This document shows, piece after piece, positions 519 to 61,030 of a stretch of DNA of 64,000 nt. Numbering within the stretch: the stretch's first letter is position 1; every line of letters begins with the position of its first letter. Made by a program: the position numbers and the translations under genes. This DNA comes from a virus, in the IMG/VR virus record IMGVR_UViG_3300001450_009970, positions 1 to 64,000 of that record; one strand, 5' to 3'. The notes below the pieces were generated by a model. It made no database searches. It saw only the letters and a list, made by a program, of their open reading frames with translations, and was not told where the DNA came from.

Positions 519-1180
519 TTTCTTTTTATAATGAATTTTGTGAAATATTTGTACTTATCATTAATTAGCATTTCAAAATTATAATCACCTTCTAATGAAT
601 CTAATGTAATTCCATAAATATCAAACAATATTGCCCAACCTCGTTCCATTCCCATTTGCTGAATTTTATTGATTGGATATATTAAATGATCAGATTTTAT
701 TCGCTTAATATCTTCAACATGAATAGAAAACATAGGACCAAAAACACCTTTATTGTATTTTATCTGTCCGAACGAATTAAAACAAAAATCGACTTGTTCT
801 TGAGAATCATATAAATTAGTATTAAATTGAATTAAATTAACAGCTGTACCAGGTTTTAATTTTTCATCTATTGCTTTGAAAAAATCACTGCGTTTTATTC
901 TAATTGAATCTTGTATAAAAAAGAATTTATCTGATTTGATGTTATTTATCGCATAAATATATGCCCCAGTATCAAAACCCCTATATGGTGTTTTGTGAAC
1001 ATGTATTGTGTAATTATATGGATTTGTTTTTGCTATCGAATCTAAAAATTCTATAGTATCTAATTCATTTGATTGCGTATCAATAATAGCCACATCGTGA
1101 CCTAATAAATCAATGTCTTCTAAATTTACAAGAAGCTTGGATAAATGTAGCTTTCCGTTATGTGACGCTATTACTATCAT
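515..1180 (-). CDS. glycosyltransferase-like protein
   Basis: A 221-residue protein. The N-terminus MIVIASHNGK, a following VAIIDTQSNE strand, and GFDTGAYIYAI then FFFIQDSIRI resemble the nucleotide-sugar fold of small GT-A-like glycosyltransferases. The FIQDS element sits where a DxD-type metal site would be, but no clear DxD is present. It overlaps the HAD gene by 4 bp (ATGA), which suggests coupled translation. A role in modifying phage DNA or the host surface is possible, but nothing here decides it. Family assignment is by general pattern only. Confidence 0.45.
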   Translation of the reverse strand: MIVIASHNGKLHLSKLLVNLEDIDLLGHDVAIIDTQSNELDTIEFLDSIAKTNPYNYTIHVHKTPYRGFDTGAYIYAINNIKSDKFFFIQDSIRIKRSDFFKAIDEKLKPGTAVNLIQFNTNLYDSQEQVDFCFNSFGQIKYNKGVFGPMFSIHVEDIKRIKSDHLIYPINKIQQMGMERGWAILFDIYGITLDSLEGDYNFEMLINDKYKYFTKFIIKRK

Positions 1181-1906
1181 TTATTTTATTTTTGCATGAT
1201 AACCTTTAACATAAGATATAAATTTTGTATAGTATTCTTTTAATTCATCAAGATTCAATTTAAATATCTGTGGCACTTCATTTTGTTCATTACTAATCCA
1301 GATTTCTGCGGTCTGTGGCATTATATTATGTCTTTCATAATATGCAAATGCATAAGCAGAAGCCTGTAAAAAATAGTTTTCAATCCATTCTCGTTTCTTA
1401 GGTTTTCCTGAACTTTTAAAATCAATTACTACAAGATTTCCATTAATCATTTTTGCTATTAAATCTACTCGACCTGCATAACCACCACCGTTAATACTCC
1501 ATAGAGCAACTTCCTGAATTACAACATCGTCGATAGTATTAAATACGCCATCACGATGCATATTCATAAATAAATTTTTACCGCTAATAAGTTGTTCCCT
1601 GCTAAAATCTTTTACTTCTTTATCATCCATTGTTTCTATGAATGTATCCTTTAGCATATTTTCTTCAGGCAATTTTTCTTCATATTTTTTACGCAAATAA
1701 TTTTCACATAATAAATGCATGAATGTTCCTCTATTAGCAGCATTAGTAGAAATTCTATTTGCTTCTTTTTTACCGACTTTTTTAATCCAGTCATCAATGC
1801 CAGATTTATCTGACATTGAACCTAATATAGTTGTGACTGAGGGTAATTTTAAATCAGTTCCATCAGGAGTATAGAACCTTCCGTTAGGTGTTGTTACAGT
1901 TTTCAA
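1181..1906 (-). CDS. PD-(D/E)XK nuclease, RecB/Cas4-like exonuclease family
   Basis: A 241-residue protein. The core reads GGYAGRVDLIAKM followed by LVVIDFKSSGKPKK: the D in GRVDLI and the D-F-K lysine form the PD-(D/E)XK metal site, and the downstream YFLQASAYAFAYYE helix carries the Q-x3-Y of RecB-type exonucleases. The conserved N-terminus RFYTPDG...LPSVTTIL supports a real start at the TTG at 1906, which overlaps the upstream stop as TTGA; no in-frame ATG is available. Such enzymes process DNA ends during phage recombination or replication. The partner is unknown. Confidence 0.7.
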   Translation of the reverse strand: MKTVTTPNGRFYTPDGTDLKLPSVTTILGSMSDKSGIDDWIKKVGKKEANRISTNAANRGTFMHLLCENYLRKKYEEKLPEENMLKDTFIETMDDKEVKDFSREQLISGKNLFMNMHRDGVFNTIDDVVIQEVALWSINGGGYAGRVDLIAKMINGNLVVIDFKSSGKPKKREWIENYFLQASAYAFAYYERHNIMPQTAEIWISNEQNEVPQIFKLNLDELKEYYTKFISYVKGYHAKIK

Positions 1907-13315: not shown

Positions 13316-13960
13316 TCAGTCTTCATTCATCTTTGGTTTTTCATGAACGTAACCTAATTTACTAAACTTTTCGTGATCTTCTTGAGTTTCTGCTTTATAT
13401 TCCTTTCCAGACTTAGGACAGTACATCATATGAGGTTCAAAATCTTTTCCTTCATTAGTTTCATCGTCATCACCATGTTTCTTACCACATGATTCATTTA
13501 CAAAAACACCTTTAGGTACATCCATTAAAGTAACAGTTTTTCCGTCCCATGATATTACACCTACAGTATTTTTTTTCTTATCTACAATATAATAAGTATC
13601 TTTGTCTTCATCACCACCTTCTAAATTATGATCATCGTTAGATAACATATCTTCTAGTTGATTAATGTCACCATCAAATTTGAAACTATTTTTACCTTCG
13701 TTAACTGATTCATTTGCTTTATACCATTTTGACAATTTTTTAACGTCTTTAGGCTTTAATTTGCTTGTTGAATCTGTTAATTCATAAGTAATCTTAGCAA
13801 TAAAGTCTTTCTCATTATTAGCAACCTTTAAGGTATCTTCTAATGAAGCTTCTATTTGATCGTAATCTAAGGTTACTGTTTTACCTTCATATTCTGAATC
13901 TATTGAAAATTCATGTGAACTTTCATTTAACCATTCTTCGTAGCTTTGTAAATTTTTCAT
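13316..13960 (-). CDS. capsid-targeted internal protein (214 aa, CTS-tagged)
   Basis: Begins MKNLQSYEEWLNES, the shared tag that resembles T4 capsid-targeting peptides and ends in L-N-E, a gp21-type cleavage signature. Further possible cut sites are ESVNEG near residue 87, VFVNES near 153 and ETNEG. The body is acidic. Its C-terminal part HMMYCPKSGKEYKAETQEDH resembles a short metal-binding or adaptor module. If processed, it would fall into about four pieces. Function unknown. It is flanked by a late element upstream and a strong terminator downstream, so it can be expressed on its own. Confidence 0.75.
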   Translation of the reverse strand: MKNLQSYEEWLNESSHEFSIDSEYEGKTVTLDYDQIEASLEDTLKVANNEKDFIAKITYELTDSTSKLKPKDVKKLSKWYKANESVNEGKNSFKFDGDINQLEDMLSNDDHNLEGGDEDKDTYYIVDKKKNTVGVISWDGKTVTLMDVPKGVFVNESCGKKHGDDDETNEGKDFEPHMMYCPKSGKEYKAETQEDHEKFSKLGYVHEKPKMNED

Positions 13961-13979
13961 TTGTATAATGCTTTTGTTT

Positions 13980-13990
13980 TATTATATATC
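13980..13990 (-). promoter_or_regulatory. late promoter element GATATATAATA
   Basis: About 22 bases before the ATG of the 214-residue tagged protein. It lies just before the terminase stop codon. Confidence 0.5.
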
Positions 13991-15799
13991 TTAGTCAACT
14001 ATTTCATATATGTTAAAAGTATCACCTCCGCCATCATGAATTTCTAATATTTGATTTATTGATTCAGATATTGCCGGATCAATATAATCCAGTAATTCTT
14101 CTACCATTTCAGAATAATCTGAAGTATCAAAAATAGAAGTTACAGTTACACATGTCATTATTGCATCGTCATTTCCAGACTGAGCTGCATAGGATCCATT
14201 TTTAGTTCGTGAAAAGGTTGTAGCTTCTTCAATAGTTTTTATTTCCTGTATTACTAATCTATTCTTTCTAATACTTTCTTTTAATGCTTGACAATAAAGT
14301 TTTTTATTTTCACCGTTTAATCTTACACCATGTGAAGTTTTTTTAGAATTTAATCTGTGTCTATATTTTACAATTATTTCTTCGTCAAATTCATTTCTTG
14401 CAGGATAAAGTGTTTGTAGATTTTTAATTAATTCAGATCCGTATGTATTATATTCCAATACAACTCGTAAATTTTCTGGTTCAAAAATTGATACACATAA
14501 TTCATAAATAATCTTAGATAAATCTGGGATTGACATTACATTGCATCTAAATATTCCAACCTGTTTTAATTGAAAGAATTCATAAATCGATCCTGGATTT
14601 GTAATTTCCTTATGATATTTAGGGTCTATAGGAACAACCTTGAATATGTTTAAAATAGAATAATCCAGTCCCACACCCTCAGCTAAATCAATAGACAATA
14701 CAAAGAAATTTTTATTGTCCTTTAATTCATCATCTACATTAAAATCTGGATGCCATTTTAAAAATGAATAATCTAATCCAAGATCGTCCAAATCATCAAA
14801 TTCATAAAACTTAAAATGAGTTTCATGCTTTTTAAGTTTCTTTATTTCATTAGATCCTAATAATAACGAATCCGCATTTATAAATTGACAACCATATTGC
14901 TTATTAAATTCTTCTACATCACCACCAAGATTTGAAATTTCTCTTGCTTTCCAGACTTCATCACGGCCAGGCACATCCCACCAGTCTACTTTAAATCCAA
15001 CATAATCTGAATCACCATCTAGAGCATCCTGCCATAAACGCTGAAATAAATTATAGCCGTTCGGTGTTGATGTAATAATTATTTTTGATATTTCTGATGA
15101 TGATAAAGTTGGATAAACGTTACCATAAAATTCTTCTGCTATATTAGCTTCTACGTGAGCAAATTCATCTAAAAATAATAAATGAATAGTAAAACCAATA
15201 CCGGCATTTTTTGTAGTATTTTGACCCATTATTCTACATTCATTATCAAACTTCATAGACATTACATCCTTTTTGATAACTCCTGGTTTCATGAAAAATG
15301 GAAGTCCTTCAACTACAGCTCTAATCTTATCTAGAATTTCTCTAGTAGTTGCGCCTTTATTTGCAAGTAACATTACATTCTTATCAAAGTTAAAAACTAA
15401 AAACCAGGTTAAAAATATTGCTGAACAAATAGTTTTACCTACCTGTCTAGGAGCAAGACAAATATTGAATCTATTTGCCTGAAAAGATCTAAGCATATCC
15501 TCCTGATAAGGTCGTAATTCAATTTTTGTATATCCTTCGTCAGTCATTACCTGACAATATTTATTTGCAAAATATACAATATCTCTAGCACATTTCTTTA
15601 ATTCTGACATCTCCATGTCAGTATATTCATATACTATATTTCCTTTCTTATATGCACTATGCCCCTCATAAAACGGATGTGGTACTTCATATCCATTTTC
15701 AATAGCTTCTATAGTTTGTTCAACCTTTTCAGTTGTCCATACTACCCTATTGTCCTGTTCTTCTTTTTCTGGTTTAAACTTTGGTATTTTAAAACTCAT
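13991..15799 (-). CDS. 17: terminase large subunit (gp17-like)
   Basis: A 602-residue packaging motor (T4 gp17 is 610). The N-terminal ATPase has Walker A APRQVGKT (116-123) and Walker B LLFLDEFAH with the catalytic Glu, followed by the coupling motif IIITSTPNG. The C-terminal RNase H-like nuclease has its first Asp in VLSIDLAEGVGLDYS and a later Asp in GNDDAIMTCV. The 4-bp overlap with the upstream 85-residue basic tagged protein suggests coupled translation. It cuts concatemers and translocates DNA into the prohead at the portal. Confidence 0.93.
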   Translation of the reverse strand: MSFKIPKFKPEKEEQDNRVVWTTEKVEQTIEAIENGYEVPHPFYEGHSAYKKGNIVYEYTDMEMSELKKCARDIVYFANKYCQVMTDEGYTKIELRPYQEDMLRSFQANRFNICLAPRQVGKTICSAIFLTWFLVFNFDKNVMLLANKGATTREILDKIRAVVEGLPFFMKPGVIKKDVMSMKFDNECRIMGQNTTKNAGIGFTIHLLFLDEFAHVEANIAEEFYGNVYPTLSSSEISKIIITSTPNGYNLFQRLWQDALDGDSDYVGFKVDWWDVPGRDEVWKAREISNLGGDVEEFNKQYGCQFINADSLLLGSNEIKKLKKHETHFKFYEFDDLDDLGLDYSFLKWHPDFNVDDELKDNKNFFVLSIDLAEGVGLDYSILNIFKVVPIDPKYHKEITNPGSIYEFFQLKQVGIFRCNVMSIPDLSKIIYELCVSIFEPENLRVVLEYNTYGSELIKNLQTLYPARNEFDEEIIVKYRHRLNSKKTSHGVRLNGENKKLYCQALKESIRKNRLVIQEIKTIEEATTFSRTKNGSYAAQSGNDDAIMTCVTVTSIFDTSDYSEMVEELLDYIDPAISESINQILEIHDGGGDTFNIYEIVD

Positions 15800-16053
15800 T
15801 TAGCCTTTTTTAAAGTAATACTATCAACATTGACTTTTGAAACATTAACTTTATCCTTCTTTGCGACCTTCTTGATTTCCATTTCGACCTTTTTGAATAT
15901 CTTGTTTTTAACGCCTTCAAGTTCGCCACCAGGACCTAATAATTTTCTAGTAGCCTGTCCTTTTACGGCATTAGCTTTACGCTCTTTAGATTTTAATTTT
16001 GGTGGTCTTGCTCTTTCATTTAAGAATTCTTCGTATGATTGTAGATTTTTCAT
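15796..16053 (-). CDS. small basic CTS-tagged internal protein (85 aa)
   Basis: MKNLQSYEEFLNER followed by about 70 residues that are strongly Lys/Arg-rich (RARPPKLKSKERKANAVKGQ and KKVAKKDKVNVSK). Removal of the tag after LNE would leave a small, very basic polypeptide, the profile of the T4 internal proteins that travel with packaged DNA. Its stop overlaps the start of the terminase gene. DNA binding is inferred from charge only. Confidence 0.75.
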   Translation of the reverse strand: MKNLQSYEEFLNERARPPKLKSKERKANAVKGQATRKLLGPGGELEGVKNKIFKKVEMEIKKVAKKDKVNVSKVNVDSITLKKAK

Positions 16054-16061
16054 ATTATATT

Positions 16062-16652
16062 TTATAGTTCAATTGATTTTATATCATATGCTGACGGACC
16101 CCAAAATAATACTTGTTCAACATCGTCACCAAAGTGATAATTTTTAATTGCATCAGTGGATTTAAATGTAATAGGATAAGATCCCCAATGCTTTGCGCCT
16201 TTTTGTAAAGTTCCGTATTTTTCTAACATATCATCATAATCAAGACCATAGTTGTATCCAATATCTCTTTTAGGCTTATGTCGTGAAGACCAATTCATAC
16301 CTAATTTAAGATAATCAGATTCACCGTAAATAAAGCCGTTTTTAACAATATTTTGTCGAATTTTTTCTGATGATACAAAATGTACAATTAGTTTATCTGA
16401 TGGATGATCTTCAGCAGGTGCATCAAAGAAATACATAGTTGGCAGTTTACTATAGTATTTTCGGTTATTAACTTTTGTAATTAGCTTAGCTGCATCAGAC
16501 TCAGAATCAAGTTTTTCTTGAGGTAATATATGATCTTTGATCCATTTTGCAAGTGACATATTGGTTCTATCAAAATGTTTCTTTAGAACATCAGTCCTTT
16601 TTCTACTAGCAGATTCATTCAAAAATTCATCGTATGACTGTAGATTTTTCAT
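16062..16652 (-). CDS. CTS-tagged internal protein, possible ADP-ribosyltransferase fold
   Basis: A 196-residue protein with tag MKNLQSYDEFLNES. Residues 88-109 (LIVHFVSSEKIRQNIVKNGF) follow the H-x2-S-x6-I-x3-G-F pattern at the start of H-Y-E-type ADP-ribosyltransferase folds. A Tyr-rich part follows (RDIGYNYGLDYDDM), and the end has VEQVLFWGPSAYDIKSIEL, where such enzymes carry the catalytic Glu strand. T4 packages the ADP-ribosyltransferase Alt by a cleaved N-terminal peptide, so the context fits. The fold call is by pattern and needs profile testing. Confidence 0.7.
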   Translation of the reverse strand: MKNLQSYDEFLNESASRKRTDVLKKHFDRTNMSLAKWIKDHILPQEKLDSESDAAKLITKVNNRKYYSKLPTMYFFDAPAEDHPSDKLIVHFVSSEKIRQNIVKNGFIYGESDYLKLGMNWSSRHKPKRDIGYNYGLDYDDMLEKYGTLQKGAKHWGSYPITFKSTDAIKNYHFGDDVEQVLFWGPSAYDIKSIEL

Positions 16653-16653
16653 G

Positions 16654-17025
16654 TTATTTCTTTTTTATGTCATCATGTTTAGGCTTTGGTCCTTTACCTT
16701 TTAACCAATCTGCAATATCTTTATCCGCAGTTTTATATGCAGTTCCTTTTTCTGTAAATACCGTCATTCTAGCATTACCCCATGCATTAAATGCAGCCGG
16801 CTTTCCTAGCTTTTTTATGTGTGGTCTTACAGCACCCCAGTTAGTAATTGCTGCACCATATCCTCTTAAAAATGCTGCCATTAATGCATATTCTAAATCT
16901 TTTGCATTTTTAGCTCCTAATGATTTTTGTAATTTTGGATCTTTTGAAAGTTTTTCTGCTCTTGATTCTGCTGCACTTTGCTTTGCTTCATTCAAGAATT
17001 CATCATACGATTGTAAATTTTTCAT
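16654..17025 (-). CDS. CTS-tagged internal protein (123 aa)
   Basis: Tag MKNLQSYDEFLNEA, then a helical Ala/Lys-rich body (SAAESRAEKLSKDPKLQKSL; DLEYALMAAFLRGYGAAITN) and a basic end ending in DDIKKK. One base separates it from the next gene, so it belongs to the same transcript as the two tagged neighbours. No family recognised. The processed form would be about 110 residues and basic. Confidence 0.72.
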   Translation of the reverse strand: MKNLQSYDEFLNEAKQSAAESRAEKLSKDPKLQKSLGAKNAKDLEYALMAAFLRGYGAAITNWGAVRPHIKKLGKPAAFNAWGNARMTVFTEKGTAYKTADKDIADWLKGKGPKPKHDDIKKK

Positions 17026-17687
17026 ATTGTATATTGTGCTTTTGGTAGATTTTTTTTAGCAAATGTAATCCAGGTTTTAAGTACCTTATTTCTTTCAGTT
17101 TTAGTCATTAATTTTTGATCGATAAAATAATCAAGATATTCATTAAATACATCATTTAACGGTCGCTTTTCTGTTTTTGCTTGACGATACATTCCGTTTG
17201 CCATTGCTGGAACTTCATCCTTTAATAGAAAGTATTTATATAGATTTCCTTTATCTCCGCTTATTTTATTTCTAATAATCGATCCAGTTATTTTAACCTT
17301 ACTTGGACGTCTATTTTCACCGCCTTGAGTTAAATGTTCTATTTCATGCCTAGCTGCATCCTGTAAAACTGCATTTAATTTTTGATAGCTTTGCGGTTCT
17401 TTAGCCGGATCCAAAGTAACAATAAATTCTATACCATTTACTGATGGATAAGCACCAGCATCAACAATAACTCCTCGAGAATTTGATACCGCTTCACGTT
17501 TTATAAATAATTGTGCGTCATCAATAAATACCTTATCATTAAATTCACCTAAATCAAATTGTAACATTTCATGCTCTCCTTTAGGACTTGTTAATTTGAT
17601 TATTGGCCAAATAGCATCTACTATTTCACCGGCAAGTTTATCATAACTTCCTTCATTTAAGAATTGATTGTAATTTTTATATCTCAT
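17022..17687 (-). CDS. CTS-tagged protein with HExxH metallopeptidase-like motif
   Basis: A 221-residue protein with tag MRYKNYNQFLNEG. DAARHEIEHLTQGG (HEIEH at 114-118) is an H-E-x-x-H zinc site in a predicted helix; a third ligand may lie downstream (the E of LKDEVPAMANG). The preceding FIVTLDP strand and later helices fit a compact metallopeptidase. It overlaps the next tagged gene by 4 bp. If packaged, it could act on host proteins after injection or within the head. Catalysis is inferred from the motif only. Confidence 0.7.
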   Translation of the reverse strand: MRYKNYNQFLNEGSYDKLAGEIVDAIWPIIKLTSPKGEHEMLQFDLGEFNDKVFIDDAQLFIKREAVSNSRGVIVDAGAYPSVNGIEFIVTLDPAKEPQSYQKLNAVLQDAARHEIEHLTQGGENRRPSKVKITGSIIRNKISGDKGNLYKYFLLKDEVPAMANGMYRQAKTEKRPLNDVFNEYLDYFIDQKLMTKTERNKVLKTWITFAKKNLPKAQYTI

Positions 17688-17691
17688 TTAA

Positions 17692-18516
17692 TTATTTATC
17701 TTCATCAGGATCAAAATCTACATCCTGAATATCTGCCTGAATTTGTTGCATCATATTTCTATTGCCACGATTAATATGACCGTCTGTTGATTTTGCCGGA
17801 GCATCACCTGTTTCAATAGCTTCTGATGGCGAATAAATATCTATATCATGTTTAAGCTTTTTAGCACCTTCTTCCATTGCATGTAAATGTAATGTTTGAT
17901 GCTTCATAATATCTAGCATTGTTTTTTGTAATCCTCCCAGAACTTCAAACATTCTTGGATGTAATTCACCACTATCAATAGTTCTTAATAAGGTTGTAAG
18001 TGCATGTTCAGCAGTTTGCATTTGAAACATTAATGATGCTAATGTCATTTCATCGACATGAGCTTTCATTTTAATATATTCGTTAGTTTCTATGACGTCA
18101 GCACTTAAATATAATTTAAGCAATGAGTTCATTAATTTTTTCCCTTTCTTTGCTGAATTAGATTTTACTTCCAGATAATCCATTTGTGGAAGGTCAATTC
18201 TTGCAGGAAGGTCTGAATCATTAGCTGTTTCCACCGGTAATGATGATGCTTCAGCCTGATCCAATAAATCTTTAATTGAATCTCTAGCTTCCTGTTTTGC
18301 CGGATCAACTTTATTTTCTTCTGGATTTTCCATAAGTTTTTGTTTTATATGTATTAATGCTAATTCCTGTGATTTGAATTCTATTGTTTCTAGATATGCA
18401 TTATCAGGCATATCAAATAAATCTACGGCCCAGTCCTTTCCGTCTTTATATGGCTTAGAATATCTTATCATTTTATCTACGACTATTTCTTGATAATCTA
18501 AGAGCTGGTAATGCAT
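17692..18516 (-). CDS. candidate terminase small subunit (gp16-like)
   Basis: A 274-residue protein. The N-terminal part is short and mixed, the middle is a long helical region, and residues about 150-230 (EYIKMKAHVDEMTLASLMFQ, then HPRMFEVLGGLQKTMLDIMK) match the central oligomerisation helices of T4-like small terminases as I know them. The C-terminus is acidic (DVDFDPDEDK). It lies upstream of the large terminase, separated by four tagged genes. The start overlaps the preceding gene by 44 bp. Confidence 0.55.
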   Translation of the reverse strand: MHYQLLDYQEIVVDKMIRYSKPYKDGKDWAVDLFDMPDNAYLETIEFKSQELALIHIKQKLMENPEENKVDPAKQEARDSIKDLLDQAEASSLPVETANDSDLPARIDLPQMDYLEVKSNSAKKGKKLMNSLLKLYLSADVIETNEYIKMKAHVDEMTLASLMFQMQTAEHALTTLLRTIDSGELHPRMFEVLGGLQKTMLDIMKHQTLHLHAMEEGAKKLKHDIDIYSPSEAIETGDAPAKSTDGHINRGNRNMMQQIQADIQDVDFDPDEDK

Positions 18517-20242
18517 TATCTACAAGTGTAGCTTTATGACTATCAACAACAACATATTGATTTAATATGAATGGTTGTTTTTCTTCTTCAATGCTTTCAG
18601 TAAATACTCTTAAATTTGTAAGTGAAATTTCACCACCATGCAATTCATAATATGTATTAGCTGGTTTTTGCGCACCTATTGAAATAGATTTTGTTTCACT
18701 AAATACTAATTTTAAATCTGTTGTTTGTGCTGTAGTTGGATTATTTTCATGTAAAGTCGGATTATATTTCATTTCCCATAAATATACAGATCCTTGAGAA
18801 TATTTATTTGATAGATTTACAACTAACCCATACCACTTATTTGTGCTTAATGCAGTAAACGGGCCGTATGAATATGATGTAGCACCTATTGTTACATTTA
18901 TTCCTGTAGTTCCTGTAGCACCAGCTCCTGTAGTATGTGCAAGATCGATTGAAATTCCTGTAGTACCGTCAGTTCCATTTATTATTTTTGATGATGTTGC
19001 CCCAGTAGCTCCCCATACAGTTTTAGAAATATTGAACCATCCAGTATAAGCTCTATTATCTGTAGCTTTTATGTCTACAGCTTTTTTATATTTTACAGCC
19101 AATGATCCGGTTGTAACAGTATTTAATTGATATCTGTATTTAGCTACAATTGTCCAATAGTTATTGATGTCCTCATTATCAATTTTAAGTAATGTGCTCA
19201 TCTCGGATCTAATAAAATCATATCCGCCTGTGCTAATAACATTATATTGTAACGGCTTTGTAACTTCTAGAAATTCATCATTGCGTTCAACACCTAATAT
19301 TTCTTCAAAGTCATTAGTCAGATCTTCTACTATGGTATCAACGGCATCTGTTCGTTTTACATTTTTTCTATCCTGCCATTTACGTAATGAAACTTTATAA
19401 TAGATTCCTTCCTGCATAAAATCTTTAAAAAGATATGCGGAATTTATTTCATACATTCTATCGGTCAATGGAAAGTATAAATAATCTCTTTCTTGTGGCC
19501 TTGCAACCTGACCGAATACAGTTTCAAATACTTCCTTTACAATATGAATTTCAAAGTCCTGTTCAAAATCCATGTCAAGCGGTCCAAAATTTATTGCATT
19601 TTCTGGAAATTCATTATCGGGTACAACTATTTTTATTTCTTTTACGTCAGTAACATCATATAATGAATATTCTCTAAGAATAACGTCTTTAGATCTTTGT
19701 TGTGGATCTACTTTAAAGTACTTTACACAATGTCCAAATAAATCAGAAATTCCTAATGCTAGCTGTTCCTGAAGACAGGCAGCTTTGGATGCAGTTTCAT
19801 AAGGATTCCATAGATTTTTATCACATTTTATTCGTACTCCAGCACAAAAATTTGGCTGTCCACAAGCTGTACCGACTGGCGGTAATTGAACAGTTTCAGT
19901 ATTATTTAAAGTTATATTTGTTGTAATAGATTCTACTGAAAGATTTCCTATTCCAGTTCCTCCACGAGTATATCGATATTCTACCCAGATATCAGTTCCA
20001 GCAACACCTGGAATTCCATTAAATGAAGTAGCACCAGTACCAACTAATGTACTCCAAGCCGAGAATGAAATTGAATCATCCGACCATCTAAATTCTTTAG
20101 TAAAAAATTTATCTGAAGTTTCACCGACAATAACATCACTATAAGAATCTATAGATAGTACATCTAAATATGCACTATCAAATGATATAATTATTACTTC
20201 GCCTGTGGTTGTGGTATTTGTAGTACCTGAGATTGTAGGCAT
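18473..20242 (-). CDS. neck protein (gp14-like) with extra glycine-rich/lectin-like domain
   Basis: A 589-residue protein. Residues about 150-300 (FEIHIVKEVFETVFG, PQERDYLYFPLTDRMYEINS, QEGIYYKVSLRKWQDR) resemble the T4-like neck protein gp14, which closes the head. The N-terminus is Thr/Ser-rich and beta-like. From about residue 340 there is a LamG/concanavalin-like stretch (YRYQLNTVTTGSLAVKY, WYGLVVNLSNKYSQGSVYLW) interrupted by Gly-Ala-Thr-Gly-rich runs. T4 gp14 has 256 residues, so more than half is additional. A GATATATAAAA late element is upstream. Confidence 0.5.
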   Translation of the reverse strand: MPTISGTTNTTTTGEVIIISFDSAYLDVLSIDSYSDVIVGETSDKFFTKEFRWSDDSISFSAWSTLVGTGATSFNGIPGVAGTDIWVEYRYTRGGTGIGNLSVESITTNITLNNTETVQLPPVGTACGQPNFCAGVRIKCDKNLWNPYETASKAACLQEQLALGISDLFGHCVKYFKVDPQQRSKDVILREYSLYDVTDVKEIKIVVPDNEFPENAINFGPLDMDFEQDFEIHIVKEVFETVFGQVARPQERDYLYFPLTDRMYEINSAYLFKDFMQEGIYYKVSLRKWQDRKNVKRTDAVDTIVEDLTNDFEEILGVERNDEFLEVTKPLQYNVISTGGYDFIRSEMSTLLKIDNEDINNYWTIVAKYRYQLNTVTTGSLAVKYKKAVDIKATDNRAYTGWFNISKTVWGATGATSSKIINGTDGTTGISIDLAHTTGAGATGTTGINVTIGATSYSYGPFTALSTNKWYGLVVNLSNKYSQGSVYLWEMKYNPTLHENNPTTAQTTDLKLVFSETKSISIGAQKPANTYYELHGGEISLTNLRVFTESIEEEKQPFILNQYVVVDSHKATLVDNALPALRLSRNSRR

Positions 20243-20256
20243 AGATATACTTTTAT

Positions 20257-20268
20257 TTTATATATCTA
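20257..20268 (-). promoter_or_regulatory. late promoter element GATATATAAAA
   Basis: About 18 bases before the neck protein ATG on the minus strand. Confidence 0.55.
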
Positions 20269-20283
20269 CGCCTATGAATGATG

Positions 20284-20871
20284 TTATTTTTTTTGAGCTA
20301 AATAACCTTTAATTGCATCTATTGCATTATCATCGCCCATTGTATATCCAAGGCCAACAAATTTTCCAGTATCAACTTTTTTACCGTTTAATGATAATGT
20401 CCACGTTGTGCGTTGACCCATTTCTTTATAGTGGTCACTCCAAGCCTCACCTCCAGATACTTCAGTATACTTCCATTTATCTCTACCCCATTTAGCTTCA
20501 AAATAATAATCAGTATCATCATAATCATCTTTTGTGATTTTGATTTTATCATGCTTAGGTTTTTCTTTATTAATTTTATCGACTTTACCATATTTTTTCT
20601 CTAGGCCTTCAATATATTCAACAAGTTCTTTTTCATATTCTATTGTTAACTGCATATTAGTATCCCAACGGTTTGGCTCGTTATTCAATAAATTAATACT
20701 AAATTCAACACCACGCTGATAATATTTGTAGACTTTAAGAATTTTATTTTTTTCTTTTTTAAAAGTAACATAAAGATCCTCATTGTAATTGGCATCTTTT
20801 AATGCTGCTAAAACTGAATTTATTTTAACAGCTTCATTTAAAAATTCATCGTATGATTGTAGATTCCTCAT
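20284..20871 (-). CDS. CTS-tagged internal protein (195 aa)
   Basis: Tag MRNLQSYDEFLNEA. The body has a helical first half (INSVLAALKDANYNEDLYVT; YEKELVEYIEGLEKKYGKVD), a Lys/Asp-rich linker and a Trp/Tyr-rich beta-like end (FEAKWGRDKWKYTEV; LGYTMGDDNAIDAIKGYL). No family recognised. It is the last of four adjacent tagged genes (20284-22486) with spacings of 2-9 bases, so one transcript is likely. Confidence 0.72.
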   Translation of the reverse strand: MRNLQSYDEFLNEAVKINSVLAALKDANYNEDLYVTFKKEKNKILKVYKYYQRGVEFSINLLNNEPNRWDTNMQLTIEYEKELVEYIEGLEKKYGKVDKINKEKPKHDKIKITKDDYDDTDYYFEAKWGRDKWKYTEVSGGEAWSDHYKEMGQRTTWTLSLNGKKVDTGKFVGLGYTMGDDNAIDAIKGYLAQKK

Positions 20872-20873
20872 AA

Positions 20874-21572
20874 TTATTTTGTTACTTTTCCTACGACTTT
20901 ATAGATATATCCTTTATGACCATCTCTCATTCGGGCTTCTCCTTCGTTTTTTCTTTCTGTTATTTTGAATTTTGCACTACCAAAAATATTTTTGAAATAT
21001 TCCATAGCAAGCTTTACTACATGGAATCCTTCTAATTCAGTTTCTATTTCTTTTTCGTTTTTCTTGATTTCTGAACTGGATTGTGTATCACCATGTCCTT
21101 TTTCGTAATGTATCCAGGTCAAGACAAAATCACTAATATTAAATATATATTCTTCCTTCTTTTCATCATATTTAAACATGACGTCATTACTATTGCCATA
21201 TTGATATTCCTTGTTTTTGATGCCTTCTATCATTTCAGCAATCTTTCTATCTAGGTCGATTGATTTGCCTTCTTTACCATCAGGTGACATGAAAAAAACT
21301 TTTCTTCCTTTCTTTGCTGCTATTAGCTCACCATGTTCAACCAATGAATCCACCCATTCATATCCATATTGAGTACCTCGATTAACCTTGAAATGATTTC
21401 TAGGAAGTTCTTTTACTTTACCTGAAAGAATATCTTTTACCGATTGAATCCAGCCTTCTAAATAAGTTGATCTTTTATGATTGCTTCTTAATGCATTATA
21501 ATAGTCATCCATACTGGATCTTTTATAATAGCTCTCGTTTAAAAATTCGTCGTACGATTTAAAATTTTTCAT
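20874..21572 (-). CDS. CTS-tagged internal protein (232 aa)
   Basis: Tag MKNFKSYDEFLNES. The body is charged with alternating helices and short strands (YLEGWIQSVKDILSG; YEWVDSLVEHGELIAAKKG; KIAEMIEGIKNKEYQYG), ending in a basic strand GHKGYIYKVVGKVTK. No motif recognised. Gene spacing of 2 bases on both sides places it in the tagged operon. Confidence 0.72.
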   Translation of the reverse strand: MKNFKSYDEFLNESYYKRSSMDDYYNALRSNHKRSTYLEGWIQSVKDILSGKVKELPRNHFKVNRGTQYGYEWVDSLVEHGELIAAKKGRKVFFMSPDGKEGKSIDLDRKIAEMIEGIKNKEYQYGNSNDVMFKYDEKKEEYIFNISDFVLTWIHYEKGHGDTQSSSEIKKNEKEIETELEGFHVVKLAMEYFKNIFGSAKFKITERKNEGEARMRDGHKGYIYKVVGKVTK

Positions 21573-21574
21573 TT

Positions 21575-22009
21575 TTATCTATGTATTTTATTTTCTTCAC
21601 CTTGAATTAATTTACCTTTTGATGTAAACACCATAGGTCCGTAAATATCATAAGATTTGCTTGAATTAAAAACAATCTTCATGTTAGCTACTACTTTACG
21701 CATAGCTGATAATGATTCCATGAAAAGAAAGTATTTACCATTTTCTCTTCTATCATCTAACAAATTAATGTGTCCAAATCGATTTAAATCCATCCCAGCT
21801 GTTATTTCTTCTATCATGTTAGATAATTCAAACCCTTTAGGTTTTTTTACTTTATCATCTTCACTTTGACCAAAATCTTCGCGATCAATAAACACACCAT
21901 AATAATCAGTAGCATTATTAACATTAAATCCTTCTAACCATGGTGAATAAATAGATTTAGGTTTTCTTGCTTCGTTTAGAAATTCATCGTATGATTGTAA
22001 ATTTTTCAT
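21575..22009 (-). CDS. CTS-tagged internal protein (144 aa)
   Basis: Tag MKNLQSYDEFLNEA followed by a basic RKPKS and then SPWLEGFNVNNATDYYGVFI. The rest is alpha/beta (ELSNMIEEITAGMDLNRFGH; FLFMESLSAMRKVVANMKIV) and ends with a basic EENKIHR. No family recognised. The processed product would be about 131 residues. Confidence 0.72.
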   Translation of the reverse strand: MKNLQSYDEFLNEARKPKSIYSPWLEGFNVNNATDYYGVFIDREDFGQSEDDKVKKPKGFELSNMIEEITAGMDLNRFGHINLLDDRRENGKYFLFMESLSAMRKVVANMKIVFNSSKSYDIYGPMVFTSKGKLIQGEENKIHR

Positions 22010-22018
22010 ATTATATTT

Positions 22019-22486
22019 TTATTTACGCCAGTCCCAAACACTGTCTTTGTTTTTAATTCTAGAAGAACTACCATAGTCAATTGATGTTCCTCGATTTATA
22101 AAAAGTACTTTATTATATAGCAAGGCATCACCAAAGTTAGTTCCAAAAAAATCAGACACTTGTCCATATTCTTTAGCACCTTTTTCTTTAAGAAACTTAA
22201 AAAATTTAGAAATCATTTCTAATTTTATGTTTTTATTAGGTTCAAGATTTCCTTTACGCGTTGGTTTAGGAACTATTGAATCCATTTCTTTGCTTTTTTT
22301 ACCATCACCCCTTTTATACCATTGATGTTTTACTTTTTGTTCAGGAACAATAACGAATCCACTTTCTATATATGAATCATCGCTTTCATCATTAAATTCC
22401 ATAGAAATAGTATAAGCTACTTTCATTAGTCTTTCTTCGACTTTACTTTCATTCAAGAATTCATTATATGAATGTATATTTTTCAT
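22019..22486 (-). CDS. CTS-tagged internal protein (155 aa)
   Basis: Tag MKNIHSYNEFLNES, then VEERLMKVAYTISMEF, a basic middle (YKRGDGKKSKEMDS; KPTRKGNLEPNKNIKLEM) and a C-terminal part with FKFLKEKGAKEYGQVSDFFG. No motif recognised. It is first in the four-gene tagged block, so a promoter for the block may lie in the A/T-rich 22487-22697 region, which also holds a 55-residue ORF. Confidence 0.72.
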   Translation of the reverse strand: MKNIHSYNEFLNESKVEERLMKVAYTISMEFNDESDDSYIESGFVIVPEQKVKHQWYKRGDGKKSKEMDSIVPKPTRKGNLEPNKNIKLEMISKFFKFLKEKGAKEYGQVSDFFGTNFGDALLYNKVLFINRGTSIDYGSSSRIKNKDSVWDWRK

Positions 22487-33342: not shown

Positions 33343-35181
33343 TTAAATTTTGTTTGTTTTGAATCGTTTTGCTAATCCTTCAGTAACTGCATCCATATAA
33401 GAACTTGTAACTTTAACTTCGTTTATCGATTCAGAATTTGCAATTGCAGATTCATTAATCGGTTGAATTATTTCAGATCTCAAATCTCTTGTCGACCAAA
33501 AATGATCGATTTGATATTGTGATTCTAAAACACTAACAGAAGCTTGTAATTTAATTTCTTCTTGTTTGCTTTCACTTAAAGAATCATAAGACTCTTTATA
33601 TTTAGCTGGGATATTTTCCAACCAATTTAAAACTTTAGGTTCGGGTGTTGTTGCTGATTCCCATATTCTTTCAACATCTCTAGTTCCGAAGTATTTGTTA
33701 TTTTTAAATGCAAGTATCAAGTCACCTTGAGAGCTTTCATTTAATTTTGCAAATTCACTTCTCTTAGATTCCGTTACAAAATGTAGGAAATGCAAGTCCT
33801 TATCTTCAGTTACTGCTTTTTGCTTCTTAGCAGATTCAAGTAAAGTATTTATCTTAGTACTGATATCATTCTTAAAGTTATCATTACTTTCTATAATTAA
33901 ATTTTCTTTAGGTTCCGATTGCTTACTTATTCTACCATTACCTTCATTAATTAATTTTGCACCGTTAAGTTCAGCAAAATTTTCATTAATATCGTTAATA
34001 GAATGTTCGGTATATGAACCTAGAGTTTCTAGATTTTCTTTAATATATTCAGTAAAATTAGCAACATGTTCCATGTTCTCAACAATATAATCGTTATGAG
34101 AAATAAGAGTATCTACTGATTCATTAATTGTAGTTTGATATTCAAATCTTGAATTAACTTCTTCACTAATGTGTTTAGAATATTCAATTGAATTATCAAC
34201 TGATTCAGCAACCATTTTACTATATTCGATTGAATTATCAAGGTTTTCAGCCAATGATTTACTATATTCAATTCCTTGATCGGTCTTAAGAGCAACCAAT
34301 TCACTATAATCTTTAACTGATTCAAGACCTTCAACAATATAATCATTATGTGCAATTAGGTTGTCTGTATTTTCTTCAACCTTATTGATTTTTGAATTCA
34401 TTGAATTTACTTCCTTAGCAATAGTTTCAACCCACTCTACAATTTGTGATTGTTCCTTTGTATTATTAGAAGGTATATCAGATTCGTTTATAGATTTGAT
34501 TGATTCCTGGATCTTATTGAATTGTTCAGTGATATATTTTGAATATTTATCGAACTGATCCATTGAGATGAATGATTCACCTTTAGTTTCGTTTATTGCA
34601 ACTTCTGGTGCGTCAACTTGAGTTAAACCGTTATTTGTGTTATCCATTTCAAATATTTGTATTGTATCGTCGTTTTGTAAGCCAAATGATTCATTGACTC
34701 TGTTTAATTGTGCATTTTCAAATCCTGGATCTGCAACCAAATCATAAGTAAATAATCTTTTAACTTTTACATGATTATTTGATTCAACAACACCAGCTGC
34801 TCTAGATGAAATATGTATTGGAACTCCTGCATCAACTAATGCCTTTGCTTGTTTTCCAGCATCAGTATCAAGTAGCTTAATTCTACCTCTTACTTGTTTT
34901 GAAGATTTATCGTAAGATATTTCTTCTATAACATGTGATACATTTTTTAATGATACTTCGAATTGTTTTGGATGATCCAGTTCTCCTAGAATTTTTCTAT
35001 CTTTAACTTTTTTAGCTAATTCTTCCACATGAGGAACAAATTCAGCTTCATCGTAAATTCGATTGTTTTTATTTTTTGTGCCTATTTCCGAAAAAATTCC
35101 TTCCAGTATATAATCGCCATTAGCGGTTTTCTGGAATTCTGCCTCAGAAACTGATCTTTCAAGAATCAGTAAGTTTTTCAT
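33343..35181 (-). CDS. 21/22: prohead protease fused to scaffold core (gp21+gp22-like)
   Basis: About 612 residues from ATG 35181; the frame continues to a GTG at 35232 across a late element. Residues 1-165 are a prohead protease: YILEGIFSEIG, catalytic His70 in LGELDHP, Ser at 125-126 in HISSRA, and DLVADPGFENAQL. The remaining 450 residues are coiled-coil with repeated segments (SHNDYIVE..., EYSKxxAExxDNSI). Internal NESF, SINES, TINES, LINEG and AINE sites suit self-processing. It lies between portal and major capsid genes, where T4 has separate genes 21 and 22. Confidence 0.85.
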   Translation of the reverse strand: MKNLLILERSVSEAEFQKTANGDYILEGIFSEIGTKNKNNRIYDEAEFVPHVEELAKKVKDRKILGELDHPKQFEVSLKNVSHVIEEISYDKSSKQVRGRIKLLDTDAGKQAKALVDAGVPIHISSRAAGVVESNNHVKVKRLFTYDLVADPGFENAQLNRVNESFGLQNDDTIQIFEMDNTNNGLTQVDAPEVAINETKGESFISMDQFDKYSKYITEQFNKIQESIKSINESDIPSNNTKEQSQIVEWVETIAKEVNSMNSKINKVEENTDNLIAHNDYIVEGLESVKDYSELVALKTDQGIEYSKSLAENLDNSIEYSKMVAESVDNSIEYSKHISEEVNSRFEYQTTINESVDTLISHNDYIVENMEHVANFTEYIKENLETLGSYTEHSINDINENFAELNGAKLINEGNGRISKQSEPKENLIIESNDNFKNDISTKINTLLESAKKQKAVTEDKDLHFLHFVTESKRSEFAKLNESSQGDLILAFKNNKYFGTRDVERIWESATTPEPKVLNWLENIPAKYKESYDSLSESKQEEIKLQASVSVLESQYQIDHFWSTRDLRSEIIQPINESAIANSESINEVKVTSSYMDAVTEGLAKRFKTNKI

Positions 35182-35217
35182 ATTTGTAGGTTTATTTTTA
35201 GCTTGGCTATTTGTTAT

Positions 35218-35229
35218 ATATATCAAGTT
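35218..35229 (-). promoter_or_regulatory. late promoter element GATATATATAAC
   Basis: On the minus strand, 37 bases before ATG 35181 and inside the GTG-start extension, supporting the ATG start. Confidence 0.5.
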
Positions 35230-35264
35230 CACATTTACAAATGTGGTATCATTTTATAATACTT

Positions 35265-36865: not shown

Positions 36866-37459
36866 TTATCTTGTTTTATTTATATATTCAATAAATAATT
36901 TGTCTCTTTCGGCTTCTCCGAGCTTGACAAAATTAGGGTTATTAATTAACATTGCGCTTGCCCAAACATCTATATTATTTGAAAAAACGTATGAATTACT
37001 TATTCTTTTATTTATGTATTTTCTTGTTGCAAATCCAATACCATATTGTTTATATGTCGCCATAAATGATTTAGGTGAAAATTTATTATATGACTGATCT
37101 CTTGCTGGGGTGTTTCTTTTGCTGTTATAAGCACTTCCATATCGTGTCCAGAATGCATCTATAAATTGATACTTTATTTTTTCTGGAAAAAAGTTTAAAT
37201 TAACACCAATATCCATAAAACCTTCAGCTGACATTAATTCATCAATCTTTATTATGAGTGGGTTAGTATTCCAATATGCTAATTTATCTCGAGTCTTTGG
37301 GTCATAATAATTAAACGAATATAATCTACCATATTGCATACGACCATTAGTTGATCCAATTATTTTACCTCTCGCACCGTCGCCTTTAGCTTTAGATGCC
37401 CAACCAGAAGCATCAAATTTTGAGCCTTTAAGATCGTTAATTTTTCTAGCCATTTCCAT
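36866..37459 (-). CDS. conserved phage protein of unknown function (197 aa)
   Basis: ARKINDLKGSKFDASGWASK opens the protein, then GRMQYGRLYSFNYYDPKTRD, KLAYWNTNPLIIKIDEL and GFMDIGVNLNFFPEKIKY. The Y-x-P-K-x-x-x-x-L-x-Y-W...P-L-I pattern is familiar from T4-like phages, but I cannot name the family. Between gp4-like and portal genes, so a head or neck role is likely. Alternative ATGs at 37459 and 37453 (MARK) are both possible. Confidence 0.6.
   Translation of the reverse strand: MEMARKINDLKGSKFDASGWASKAKGDGARGKIIGSTNGRMQYGRLYSFNYYDPKTRDKLAYWNTNPLIIKIDELMSAEGFMDIGVNLNFFPEKIKYQFIDAFWTRYGSAYNSKRNTPARDQSYNKFSPKSFMATYKQYGIGFATRKYINKRISNSYVFSNNIDVWASAMLINNPNFVKLGEAERDKLFIEYINKTR
36879..36890 (-). 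promoter_or_regulatory. late promoter element AATATATAAAT
   Basis: About 18 bases before the portal ATG on the minus strand. Confidence 0.55.
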
Positions 37460-37467
37460 ATTATCAA

Positions 37468-37941
37468 CTATTTGAATCCATTAAAAAATCCTTCAGTAAC
37501 AATCTTAAAAATATATCCGCGACTATCACACCATTTTTTAGCTGCGGCAAACTTTGCCATATTTAGAATATATTGTTCAGACAAATATTTAAAGTTTTTA
37601 ATTGTTTTAGGAGTTTTTCTTTTAGGTTGTTTAGGTTTTTTAATTTGAGCTTCCGGCTTTACTTCTATTACAAGTTTCTTACCATCATCCAATAACATAA
37701 AGAAATCTGGATGATATTTAGAATACTTTTCTCTTAGTGGATTCCAATATTTTATTTCAAACGGTTCAGATGACCATTTAATTACTTTAGCATTTGATTC
37801 ACAATAAATACAAAATTTTTGTTCCCAGCTACTTCTATAAATAATAGGACCGTTACCAATATATTTAGCACATTCATTCAACGGAAAATATCCTTGTTTG
37901 AATCTGGATTTTTTGGTTGGCTTATTATTCTTTATGCTCAT
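37468..37941 (-). CDS. 4: head completion nuclease (gp4-like)
   Basis: A 157-residue protein (T4 gp4 is about 150). Family pattern clear: IYRSSWEQKFCIYCESNAKV, IKWSSEPFEIKYWNPLREKY, SKYHPDFFMLLDDGKKLVIE and VKPEAQ: Glu of SSWE, Asp of HPDF, Glu-x-Lys of IEVKP form a TnsA-like PD-(D/E)XK site. gp4 acts on the filled head before tail joining. It overlaps the upstream tagged nuclease-like gene by 4 bp. Confidence 0.85.
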   Translation of the reverse strand: MSIKNNKPTKKSRFKQGYFPLNECAKYIGNGPIIYRSSWEQKFCIYCESNAKVIKWSSEPFEIKYWNPLREKYSKYHPDFFMLLDDGKKLVIEVKPEAQIKKPKQPKRKTPKTIKNFKYLSEQYILNMAKFAAAKKWCDSRGYIFKIVTEGFFNGFK

Positions 37942-39023
37942 ATTTTAATATCACCTATTGACGCACCAACTCGAGTTTGAGCTGCATCTCCCCATTCAAT
38001 TTGATTATTAAAATATGTGCTTGTAAATTTGTGTATTTGTTCAAAATTTGAATCTTTACAATTTAATGTACACAAATGTTTTCTGTCATTAGTAGTAGTA
38101 AATAGCCAATCAAATCTTTCTTCTCTATAATATCCGTCTAAATGAATAGCGGTTATAATTGCTTTAAGTTTATTACTTGCCTTTGATGAATTCGCTTCGT
38201 TTATGAATACAGTACTAATATAATTTACAGTTGTTTTTGATAATAATTCGTTACTAGCGGTATAATTAGATAATGCTACTATAAGTTTTTTAGTAAGGAG
38301 CTTTGTTTGATTTATATCTAATTTTTGAATTGTATCTGAAAAAGTTTTGGCTAAATCAAGTAATGCACCTGGCCCAAATGATTTAGTTTTAGATTTCCAA
38401 GAAACACCATGAGGTTTAAATGCCTTCTGTATTTCTGATTCAGATTTAGACCAGTTTTTAGTATTTTTTGTTCCGCCAAGACGACCTCTACGTTGCTTAA
38501 CTTCGATCAATTCATTATTTGGACCTTTTATATCACCACCAGTTGTAGAATTACTAAAATGTGATAGCATACAATAATATAATTCTGTACGACCGACTAC
38601 TGGTAATCCAAGCCCTGATAATTCTATTAATTTTTCAAAGAATTTTTTATCAAATAAATGAGCAAAATGATTTTCTATTTCTGCTAACGGTATATGACCG
38701 CCATTAGTTGGATTTAATTTAAATTCATTTTTTGATGGATTAGCTAACCAATTTAATAAGTCATTATCATTACCAATAAAATGTTTTTCCATAAGATTTA
38801 ATATAACAGGTATATTAGATTTAGGAATTTTTTTATCATCCAAAAAATTACCTATTGGTCCTTTTAGATCTGGTATCAGTATATTTTTAATTTGAGTAAT
38901 CTTATTAGAATCTTTAGTTGTATCTAATTGTCCTAATGTTATTTGATCGTTTTTTATTGTATCTAAATTAACATAATTCAATGCCTCGGATAAAAACTCA
39001 CTATAATTTTTGTATCTTCCCAT
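37938..39023 (-). CDS. CTS-tagged protein with PD-(D/E)XK nuclease motif
   Basis: A 361-residue protein with tag variant MGRYKNYSEFLSEA. Residues 140-180 hold a candidate restriction-endonuclease site: GRTELYYCMLS (Glu147), GGDIKGPNNELIEVKQRRGR with Asp164, nine residues, Glu174-Val-Lys176. The C-terminal half is helical plus a mixed domain around DWLFTTTNDRKHLCTLN. The tag and the site suggest a nuclease packaged in the head and delivered with DNA. It overlaps gp4 and has a late element upstream. Confidence 0.7.
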   Translation of the reverse strand: MGRYKNYSEFLSEALNYVNLDTIKNDQITLGQLDTTKDSNKITQIKNILIPDLKGPIGNFLDDKKIPKSNIPVILNLMEKHFIGNDNDLLNWLANPSKNEFKLNPTNGGHIPLAEIENHFAHLFDKKFFEKLIELSGLGLPVVGRTELYYCMLSHFSNSTTGGDIKGPNNELIEVKQRRGRLGGTKNTKNWSKSESEIQKAFKPHGVSWKSKTKSFGPGALLDLAKTFSDTIQKLDINQTKLLTKKLIVALSNYTASNELLSKTTVNYISTVFINEANSSKASNKLKAIITAIHLDGYYREERFDWLFTTTNDRKHLCTLNCKDSNFEQIHKFTSTYFNNQIEWGDAAQTRVGASIGDIKI

Positions 39024-39037: not shown

Positions 39038-39048
39038 TTATATATCAA
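39038..39048 (-). promoter_or_regulatory. late promoter element GATATATAAAAT
   Basis: About 18 bases before the ATG of the 361-residue tagged protein, at the end of the gp55-like gene. Confidence 0.55.
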
Positions 39049-39413
39049 ATTGAATAGATGCCATCACCATTAGAATTACTCAATGATATAGTTCCTTTAT
39101 ATTTCTTTGGATGTAATTTATGCCAGCCTTTTGCATATCCGTTCATACACATTGATGTAAAATATGAGAATGCATTTGTAGTTTTTTCTGGCTTAAAACT
39201 TCTCCAATATTTCATTAAATCTAAAATAGCAAATGATAAGCAATCTTCTTGATCCTGTGGATTAGCATATTTTAATTTTCTTTGCGCTCGTTCGGCTAAC
39301 ATTGTTAACATTTTAACTGCTGTTCGAGTTAATTCATCCTGCTCTTTTGATAAAACAATTTGATCATATAAATCTCTATTGTTTAAATAATTCTTTGATT
39401 TTCTTCGTGCCAT
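39045..39413 (-). CDS. 55: late-transcription sigma factor (gp55-like)
   Basis: A 122-residue protein (T4 gp55 is 185). NYLNNRDLYDQIVLSKEQDE at the start parallels the N-Y-V-N-N-K-E-L-L start of T4 gp55. RKLKYANPQDQEDCLSFAIL and the FKPEKTTNAFSYFTSMCMNG core (T4: F-D-E-T-K-Y-K-N-P-H-A-Y-I-T-Q-A-C-F-N) match sigma region 2. The C-terminus is shorter than in T4. It should direct host core polymerase to the TATA-like late boxes. Its own gene is preceded by a perfect TGAAACA-N17-TATAAT promoter. Confidence 0.85.
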   Translation of the reverse strand: MARRKSKNYLNNRDLYDQIVLSKEQDELTRTAVKMLTMLAERAQRKLKYANPQDQEDCLSFAILDLMKYWRSFKPEKTTNAFSYFTSMCMNGYAKGWHKLHPKKYKGTISLSNSNGDGIYSI

Positions 39414-60175: not shown

Positions 60176-61030
60176 TTATTTATCTTCAGATAGTTCGTCT
60201 TTTAATTGAGGATAATATTGATGTGTAGTTGTATCAGTCATGGATTTGAATGATTTTATATCATCTTCTATTAAAGCTTTACGAACTTTAGATGCACTAA
60301 TATTATCATCAGTACGTTTTATTTCATGAGCTTTAAATTCTGGATCTACATTTAAATCCAATCTATAAGAATCTTTTTGAATTTGACCGCTATAGGCTTT
60401 TAATCTATCTGATCCAGTACCCCACAAAATAGGCTCATATTCAGGACGTAATTCATTATAAATTGTATCTATACCCGCTCTTGAAATAGTTCTGAATCCT
60501 TCTATAAATTTATGTTTCTTTGCAAGATCGTTAAATATTTGCTCTATTAAACCTTCACTAAACGGTGTTTTTTCCTTGTTAATTTTCTTTGCACGCACCA
60601 TAAGTACTATTACAGGATATCCATTTTCTTCGGACAAAGATTTAAGAACTTTTATATGTCCTAGCGTCGGAGGTTGAAAACGTCCCGCAATAATATTAAC
60701 TTTTTTATTGCCAGGTTCTGTTGAATCTACCTTTAAAGCTTCATTTAAAGATTCAGATATTTTTCCGGTTTTAGATACTTTATAATATGTAGGTATTTTA
60801 TCCCAATCTTTACCGTTAGTTTTTATGCCTGAATACATTTGATTTTTATCACTTTTCCATGCACCACCAGTTCCATCTTTATATTTGATCATGGTTGGTG
60901 TTTCTTCATAAAACCACCAATCGCCATCAGAATGCTGTGCTAAATATCTTGCCCAATCTGGGATATTTTTAAATTTAGGAAATTGTTTTCCTTCATTTAT
61001 GAAATCAAAAAATCTTTTGAATCTATTCAT
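60176..61030 (-). CDS. CTS-tagged nucleotidyltransferase (NMN adenylyltransferase-like)
   Basis: A 284-residue protein with tag MNRFKRFFDFINEG. An N-terminal Trp/Tyr-rich domain (DWARYLAQHSDGDWWFYEET) is followed by a second cleavage-type site SESLNEA (93-99), then a nucleotidyltransferase: VNIIAGRFQPPTLGHIKVLK (T-x-G-H at 122-125) and DDNISASKVRKAL (I-S-x-x-x-x-R near 245). It resembles archaeal-type NadM. It may act in NAD repair together with the adjacent ligase-like protein. Probably packaged as tag plus two mature parts. Confidence 0.8.
   Translation of the reverse strand: MNRFKRFFDFINEGKQFPKFKNIPDWARYLAQHSDGDWWFYEETPTMIKYKDGTGGAWKSDKNQMYSGIKTNGKDWDKIPTYYKVSKTGKISESLNEALKVDSTEPGNKKVNIIAGRFQPPTLGHIKVLKSLSEENGYPVIVLMVRAKKINKEKTPFSEGLIEQIFNDLAKKHKFIEGFRTISRAGIDTIYNELRPEYEPILWGTGSDRLKAYSGQIQKDSYRLDLNVDPEFKAHEIKRTDDNISASKVRKALIEDDIKSFKSMTDTTTHQYYPQLKDELSEDK

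Follow-up and report, generated by a model that had tools for sequence, protein, structure and literature searches.

A predicted PD-(D/E)XK-type protein with a capsid-targeting-like tag in a T4-type phage: a candidate for a nuclease delivered with the phage DNA

The window, the whole 64,000-nucleotide stretch of viral DNA analysed here, encodes on its minus strand the protein P0001, which is most likely a PD-(D/E)XK nuclease that is packaged in the phage head, trimmed by the prohead protease and ejected together with the DNA; we put the probability of this reading at roughly one half. The tag and the active site of P0001 are well supported by sequence, and from these we infer packaging, cleavage, ejection, nuclease activity, target and self-protection. 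The first-pass annotation had suggested a tagged nuclease delivered with the phage DNA. A PD-(D/E)XK-type site and a T4-type tag with a cleavage motif, in a phage encoding an S77 protease, were borne out by the present analysis, and the subsequent steps are presented as a conditional proposal.

The window belongs to a virus record of 108 kb, and a 100% identical copy of the P0001 gene occurs in the 166.5 kb record IMGVR_UViG_3300025168_000033. The best matches of the portal among annotated records were uncultured phages, Sphingomonas phage PAU and Prevotella Lak phages, and the phage is therefore considered a T4-type myovirus. P0001 and its surroundings comprise the following genes:

37938..39023, minus strand: P0001, tagged PD-(D/E)XK-like protein of 361 aa, from the ORF reading of the window
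39045..39413, minus strand: gp55-like late sigma factor (phrog_234, E 1.5e-12)
37468..37941, minus strand: gp4-like head completion protein (phrog_218 head closure, E 2.8e-40)
36866..37459, minus strand: gp2-like DNA end protector (phrog_429, E 2.4e-12)
33343..35232, minus strand: gp21-type (S77) prohead protease with a long C-terminal extension (phrog_207, E 1.4e-37)

The coordinates 37938-39023 proposed earlier for P0001 are right and the gene is read from the minus strand, as the plus strand of this interval contains stops throughout. The N-terminus of the protein is MGRYKNYSEFLSEALNYV. The gene for the late sigma factor lies 21 bases upstream of the P0001 start, and the end of P0001 overlaps the gp4-like gene by ATGA. 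The gp2, portal and S77 protease genes are located downstream of gp4. P0001 lies within the morphogenesis gene cluster. The PF03420 match in the protease covers 34771-35124 (E 4.6e-13), and this gp21-type enzyme is predicted to process the tags described below. The T4-type late promoter TATAAATA was not enriched in the window and has no perfect copy before P0001, nor is there a clear late promoter directly upstream of the gene. Recent acquisition of P0001 was rejected on the basis of base composition (GC 0.279 as compared to 0.277-0.313 in the neighbouring genes).

With P0001 as query, no match was obtained in Pfam, PHROG, PADLOC, PDB sequences or cultured phages, and the missing PADLOC match also led to the rejection of P0001 as a defence gene. 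Searches of phage records and viral contigs returned the same phage only, and tblastn at E 10 yielded only unrelated weak matches, as did DNA similarity. A family was instead reached when viral contigs were searched for the motif GGD...IE(V/I)K; scanning for the exact GGD-x9-IE(V/I)K spacing recovered only unrelated proteins, none of them with the upstream Glu context. A scan with a four-member alignment identified 101 related loci in viral contigs, of which 80 were retained; the 84,980 prokaryote genomes scanned yielded none. The collected loci contain 119 matching ORFs, 74 of them distinct, that share the signature G-P-G-E-x-A-L-A ... G-G-D-(I/L) ... (I/V)-E-(V/I/L)-K ... G-G-R. Family branches are often <30% identical, and ordinary BLAST joins two divergent branches at about 1e-15. 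The family gave no match at a meaningful score in Pfam or PHROG, and tblastn detected none in 50,697 phage records, nor any in cultured phages. The family thus appears to be restricted to phages and, as far as the searched libraries show, to be previously undescribed.

In other phages, the family genes are often found near uvsX or gp41 homologues and otherwise among unrelated genes. Among 25 family-bearing records tested, many of which are fragments, a T4-type portal was present in G048, G050 and G052 and an S77 protease in G047, G048 and G050, all four records being >200 kb; the protease was thus found in three of the five family-bearing records over 200 kb, in addition to the record of the window. 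The S77 frames of the family-bearing records comprise 213-220 aa, far shorter than the 629-aa ORF of the window with its long repetitive extension (repeats like NSIEYSK), which perhaps carries protease and scaffold on one chain.

P0001 was missed by a first profile restricted to close members. Using broader profiles built without P0001, it was the best non-family match (13.9 bits, E 0.01, residues 123-256), while motif-only decoy proteins reached at most 10.3 bits. hhalign placed the right residues opposite each other, with an E value of 0.002 in one comparison and a probability of only 14%. The link between P0001 and the family extends over about 50-130 residues at E 0.01; the D-x9-E spacing of P0001 is shared by the ORFs L293 and L294. 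These weak scores, together with the fact that the family itself was found by way of the GGD-IEVK motif, are what would be expected if P0001 were non-homologous to the family, an orphan of unrelated function with a coincidental GGD-IEVK. This is very unlikely, as the similarity includes elements outside the search pattern, namely E147 in a G-x-x-E...MLS context, GRL after the hairpin, and the tag. In addition, none of 1,000 shuffles that kept residues 162-176 in place reached the P0001 score (largest 13.2, mean 0.8), and the chance matches to GGD-x9-IE(V/I)K were all without the upstream Glu context. In our judgement, P0001 is very probably a remote member of the family.

The predicted active site of P0001 is laid out as G144-R-T-E147 ... 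GGD164-x9-E174-V-K176, and E147, D164, E174 and K176 are indeed located at the residue numbers given in the first-pass annotation. The elements, with conservation counted over the 74 distinct family members, are:

38583..38585, minus strand: E147, in predicted helix H145-153; 73/73 in the family, helix in the model
38532..38534, minus strand: D164 of GGDI, predicted metal ligand; 72/72 in the family, short strand in the model
38496..38504, minus strand: E174-V175-K176, the (D/E)XK element, in predicted strand 172-176; E 72/72 and K 72/72 in the family, strand in the model
38130..38132, minus strand: Y298, invariant Tyr in the long C-terminal helix 282-302; 68/68 in the family, helix in the model

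An alignment of P0001 with 41 family representatives contains nine invariant columns, G108, G144, E147, G163, D164, E174, K176, G183 and Y298, of which the invariance of G108 and Y298 depends on the alignment. Because four of the nine columns are E147, D164, E174 and K176, the conservation of these residues goes beyond chance, and E147 was absent from the search pattern through which the family was found. DUF4420 (PF14390, 'putative PD-(D/E)XK') gave weak matches in 7 of 42 members (best E 0.024), which cover the catalytic motif in those cases with positions given and score 11-13 bits in the members shown, as compared to a curated cut-off of 27 bits; P0001 itself did not match DUF4420. The invariance across a diverse family, the placement in helix and strands in the models and the weak DUF4420 matches together support the PD-(D/E)XK-type site claimed earlier, and it is highly probable that P0001 possesses such a site.

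AlphaFold2 modelling of a family member (L111, 41 sequences) resulted in a pLDDT of 85.9 and a pTM of 0.83, and that of P0001 in 70.5 and 0.66; as the family alignment also underlies the P0001 model, the agreement between the two models is not independent. The L111 model contains a helix at 144-150 (E144), strands at 154-156, 163-165 (after D162) and 168-175 (E171, K173), a helix at 265-284 and a strand at 288-293. Both models put the first Glu on a helix; the Asp falls at a short strand and ExK within the strand after it, beyond which come a helical insertion, the long helix containing the invariant Tyr, and one more strand. In terms of secondary structure, the models thus display the alpha-beta-beta-beta-alpha-beta core order of PD-(D/E)XK enzymes. 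A Foldseek search against the PDB returned no solved structure at E <1 for either model (best E 1.1 and 2.2), with the restriction enzyme 3ndh and Dom3Z (3fqj) appearing only among the noise. As regards the earlier question of a fold that brings the residues together, the order of secondary-structure elements is right, but Foldseek finds no solved PD-(D/E)XK structure. A profile search of PDB sequences gave a weak match to the helical N-terminal part only. The family model did match three proteins of uncultured Caudovirales phages in BFVD, A0A6J5L5I7, A0A6J5TDS8 and A0A6J7WGY6 (E 1.9e-15 to 7.9e-8), which are uncharacterised and share its fold. The order alpha(E)-beta-beta(D)-beta(ExK) is common to the P0001 family and the PD-(D/E)XK superfamily, in which DUF4420 is the nearest named model; in contrast, the long helical N-terminal part and the helical insertion set the family apart, and it has no overall likeness to solved structures.

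The second element of P0001 is its N-terminal tag:

38985..39023, minus strand: capsid-targeting-like tag, codons 1-13, MGRYKNYSEFLSE; residue spacing as in T4 IPII/IPIII

T4 IPII and IPIII, as read from NC_000866, both begin with MKTYQEFIAE|A. Ten residues of the T4 CTS are enough for packaging, with residues 4 and 7 serving in targeting and residues 8 and 10 in processing (PMC9026906). Y7, F10, L11, E13 and A14 of P0001 agree in spacing and residue class with the CTS of IPII and IPIII at all functionally tested positions, and the prohead protease is predicted to cut P0001 after E13 (LSE|A). Of the window's 67 minus-strand ORFs, 14 (P0001 among them) begin with the strict tag pattern, and a few others fit it loosely; tagged ORFs occur on this strand only. 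A DNA pattern representing the most frequent tag was found at 13 places in the record of the window and at 20 in a longer sister record, on one strand in each case, and the reversed control pattern had no match in either. The tag noted at first pass is thus real, given its recurrence on other ORFs of the window and the restriction of the DNA pattern to one strand. As in the T4 internal proteins, it is common to otherwise unrelated proteins. Within the family, the column of E13 holds Glu in 93% of the members, and [L/I]xE is found within residues 6-20 in 23 of 27 representatives as compared to 76 of 504 control ORFs from these loci (Fisher p 1.6e-14, an optimistic value, since shared descent makes the representatives non-independent). 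At one locus (L154:4061-5693, minus strand), a family gene starting with MLSFKNFLTEA... adjoins a HAD-like gene starting with MLSFKEFLTEA..., so that the two share their start.

Such a frequent tag could mean that P0001 acts as a nuclease in the infected cell, in host DNA breakdown or superinfection exclusion, and that its N-terminal segment is no packaging signal here: a fifth or more of the window ORFs are many for a packaging signal, and CTS function is proven in T4 and inferred in the phage of P0001. As every tested CTS position is matched, the cleavage motif is kept across the family and an S77 protease is encoded, we consider this explanation distinctly unlikely and packaging of P0001 into the head, as judged from its sequence, probable.

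Several further observations concern the tagged genes. A predicted cytidylyltransferase (window 60176-61030, minus strand) bears the tag MNRFKRFFDFINEG, and the head may thus receive further enzymes as well. Tagged genes are clustered at window positions 13316-22486 (minus strand) and at G043:C1:1531-5655, with very similar tags and different remainders, and these clusters look like a bank of cargo genes. Just beyond the window, two near-identical tag starts are located 441 bases apart (G000:C1:64350-64388 and 64791-64829), which suggests a tagged gene that was probably duplicated in tandem recently.

In relatives of the phage, the interval between gp55 and gp4 is often occupied by unrelated proteins, most of which begin with MKN(L/I)xx(F/Y)xEFxxE, and no P0001 homologue was present in 42 other records that carry related portals, many of which are fragmentary. 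The intervals of L003-L067 hold several different tagged proteins, among them a recurrent family of about 100 aa starting with MKNLxSFDEFVNE... and a 270-aa protein with WWEVTKGILAAD. As different tagged proteins are found in this interval in relatives, P0001 is concluded to lie in a variable cargo slot. The location also raises the possibility that P0001, whether packaged or bound to the scaffold, acts in head assembly and is not injected: together with gp4, gp2 or the terminase, it would trim or resolve the packaged DNA as a structure-specific nuclease. The translational overlap with gp4 and the proximity of gp2 and the late sigma factor would be in line with such a role, as would the GGD-x-E-V-K hairpin, which is also typical of resolvase-like enzymes. 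The location varies, however, with family members elsewhere near uvsX or among unrelated genes, and the unrelated proteins filling the slot in relatives suggest that P0001 is dispensable for head completion. An assembly function is thus unlikely.

The most likely reading, a head-packaged nuclease, can be outlined as follows. P0001 would be an internal head protein of the T4 type whose cargo domain is a PD-(D/E)XK nuclease. Residues 1-13 would dock on the prohead scaffold, and cleavage by the gp21-type protease behind LSE13 would yield a basic protein (about 348 residues, pI about 9.1) that stays in the head. The trimmed protein would be ejected with the DNA and act as a DNA-cutting enzyme in the newly infected cell, most plausibly on the DNA of the host, of plasmids or of rival phages. 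Given the active site and packaging, an active nuclease is probable; action on non-phage DNA after ejection has about an even chance overall.

Ejection does not necessarily imply cutting. P0001 may be an injected anti-defence protein resembling T4 IPI, which inhibits a restriction enzyme (PMC9026906), with a nuclease-like fold that binds DNA or a host enzyme as decoy or competitor and cuts little or not at all. This would agree with the T-even internal proteins being a highly diverse defence set with only the CTS in common (PMC3012670). As all four catalytic residues are invariant across branches that are often <30% identical, which points to catalysis being kept, this variant is unlikely.

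A head-packaged nuclease would have to spare the phage's own DNA, which could be achieved by base modification or by the lack of a free metal ion in the head. EcoRI and staphylococcal nuclease were packaged by T4 when fused to the CTS, and the packaged staphylococcal nuclease digested the phage DNA in the head only upon addition of Ca2+ (PMC9026906). A sister record of the same phage encodes an ordinary thymidylate synthase (L295) and a second homologue, L296. The latter (L296:1480-2175, minus strand; record G043, about 150.5 kb) is located next to a nucleotide kinase-like gene at 947-1480 (minus strand) and, when aligned with T4 gp42, has an Asp at the position where thymidylate synthase has the Asn of PFN (three sequences). 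An Asn to Asp exchange at this substrate position marks dCMP hydroxymethylases. Judging from these three sequences, the DNA of the phage may therefore carry modified cytosine, and the dCMP-hydroxymethylase-like L296 and the kinase-like gene are candidates for self-protection. More tentatively, and less probably than not, a widespread class of T4-like and jumbo phages could naturally package a CTS-tagged PD-(D/E)XK nuclease and eject it with the genome for a first strike on unmodified DNA (host chromosome, plasmids, competing phages), their own DNA being base-modified.

P0001 shares with T4 IPI, IPII, IPIII and Alt the N-terminal YxEF(I/L)xE|A tag, an S77 protease encoded in the same genome and the T4-type phage background. 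Among the natural T4 internal proteins named in the cited sources, one is an ADP-ribosyltransferase, one inhibits restriction, two have unclear roles and none is a nuclease, and the mature part of P0001 showed no similarity to T4 internal proteins. The engineered T4 heads with CTS-EcoRI or CTS-staphylococcal nuclease demonstrate that a nuclease can be loaded by the same kind of tag and that its packaging is tolerable (PMC9026906); these heads are man-made, whereas P0001 would be a natural case. Nucleases were engineered into the T4 head decades ago, and the sequence evidence suggests that nature may do likewise, in about a hundred environmental relatives among which no cultured representative was found. 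If this is true, a pre-made nuclease that acts instantly would join the repertoire of phage-injected proteins, with a clear problem of self-protection for the phage DNA. The proposal is not categorically new, as delivery system and enzyme superfamily are each already known; new, as far as the searched libraries show, are the family and the T4-type variant of injected cargo.

The concept of injected effectors is shared with the polyvalent injected phage proteins (PMC5512222), and the family domain in L293 and L294 ends a protein of multiple segments with a tag-like start, while P0001 is compact, with 361 aa and one recognisable catalytic part. The nuclease-like domain is C-terminal in both L293:5975-11068 (1698 aa) and L294:8381-11083 (901 aa), which have a tag-like start, MKFKDVRTIKSLIKEY; L293 in addition gave a weak amidoligase match. 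Internal LxE-like motifs in L293 and L294 suggest a polyprotein that is cut in the head.
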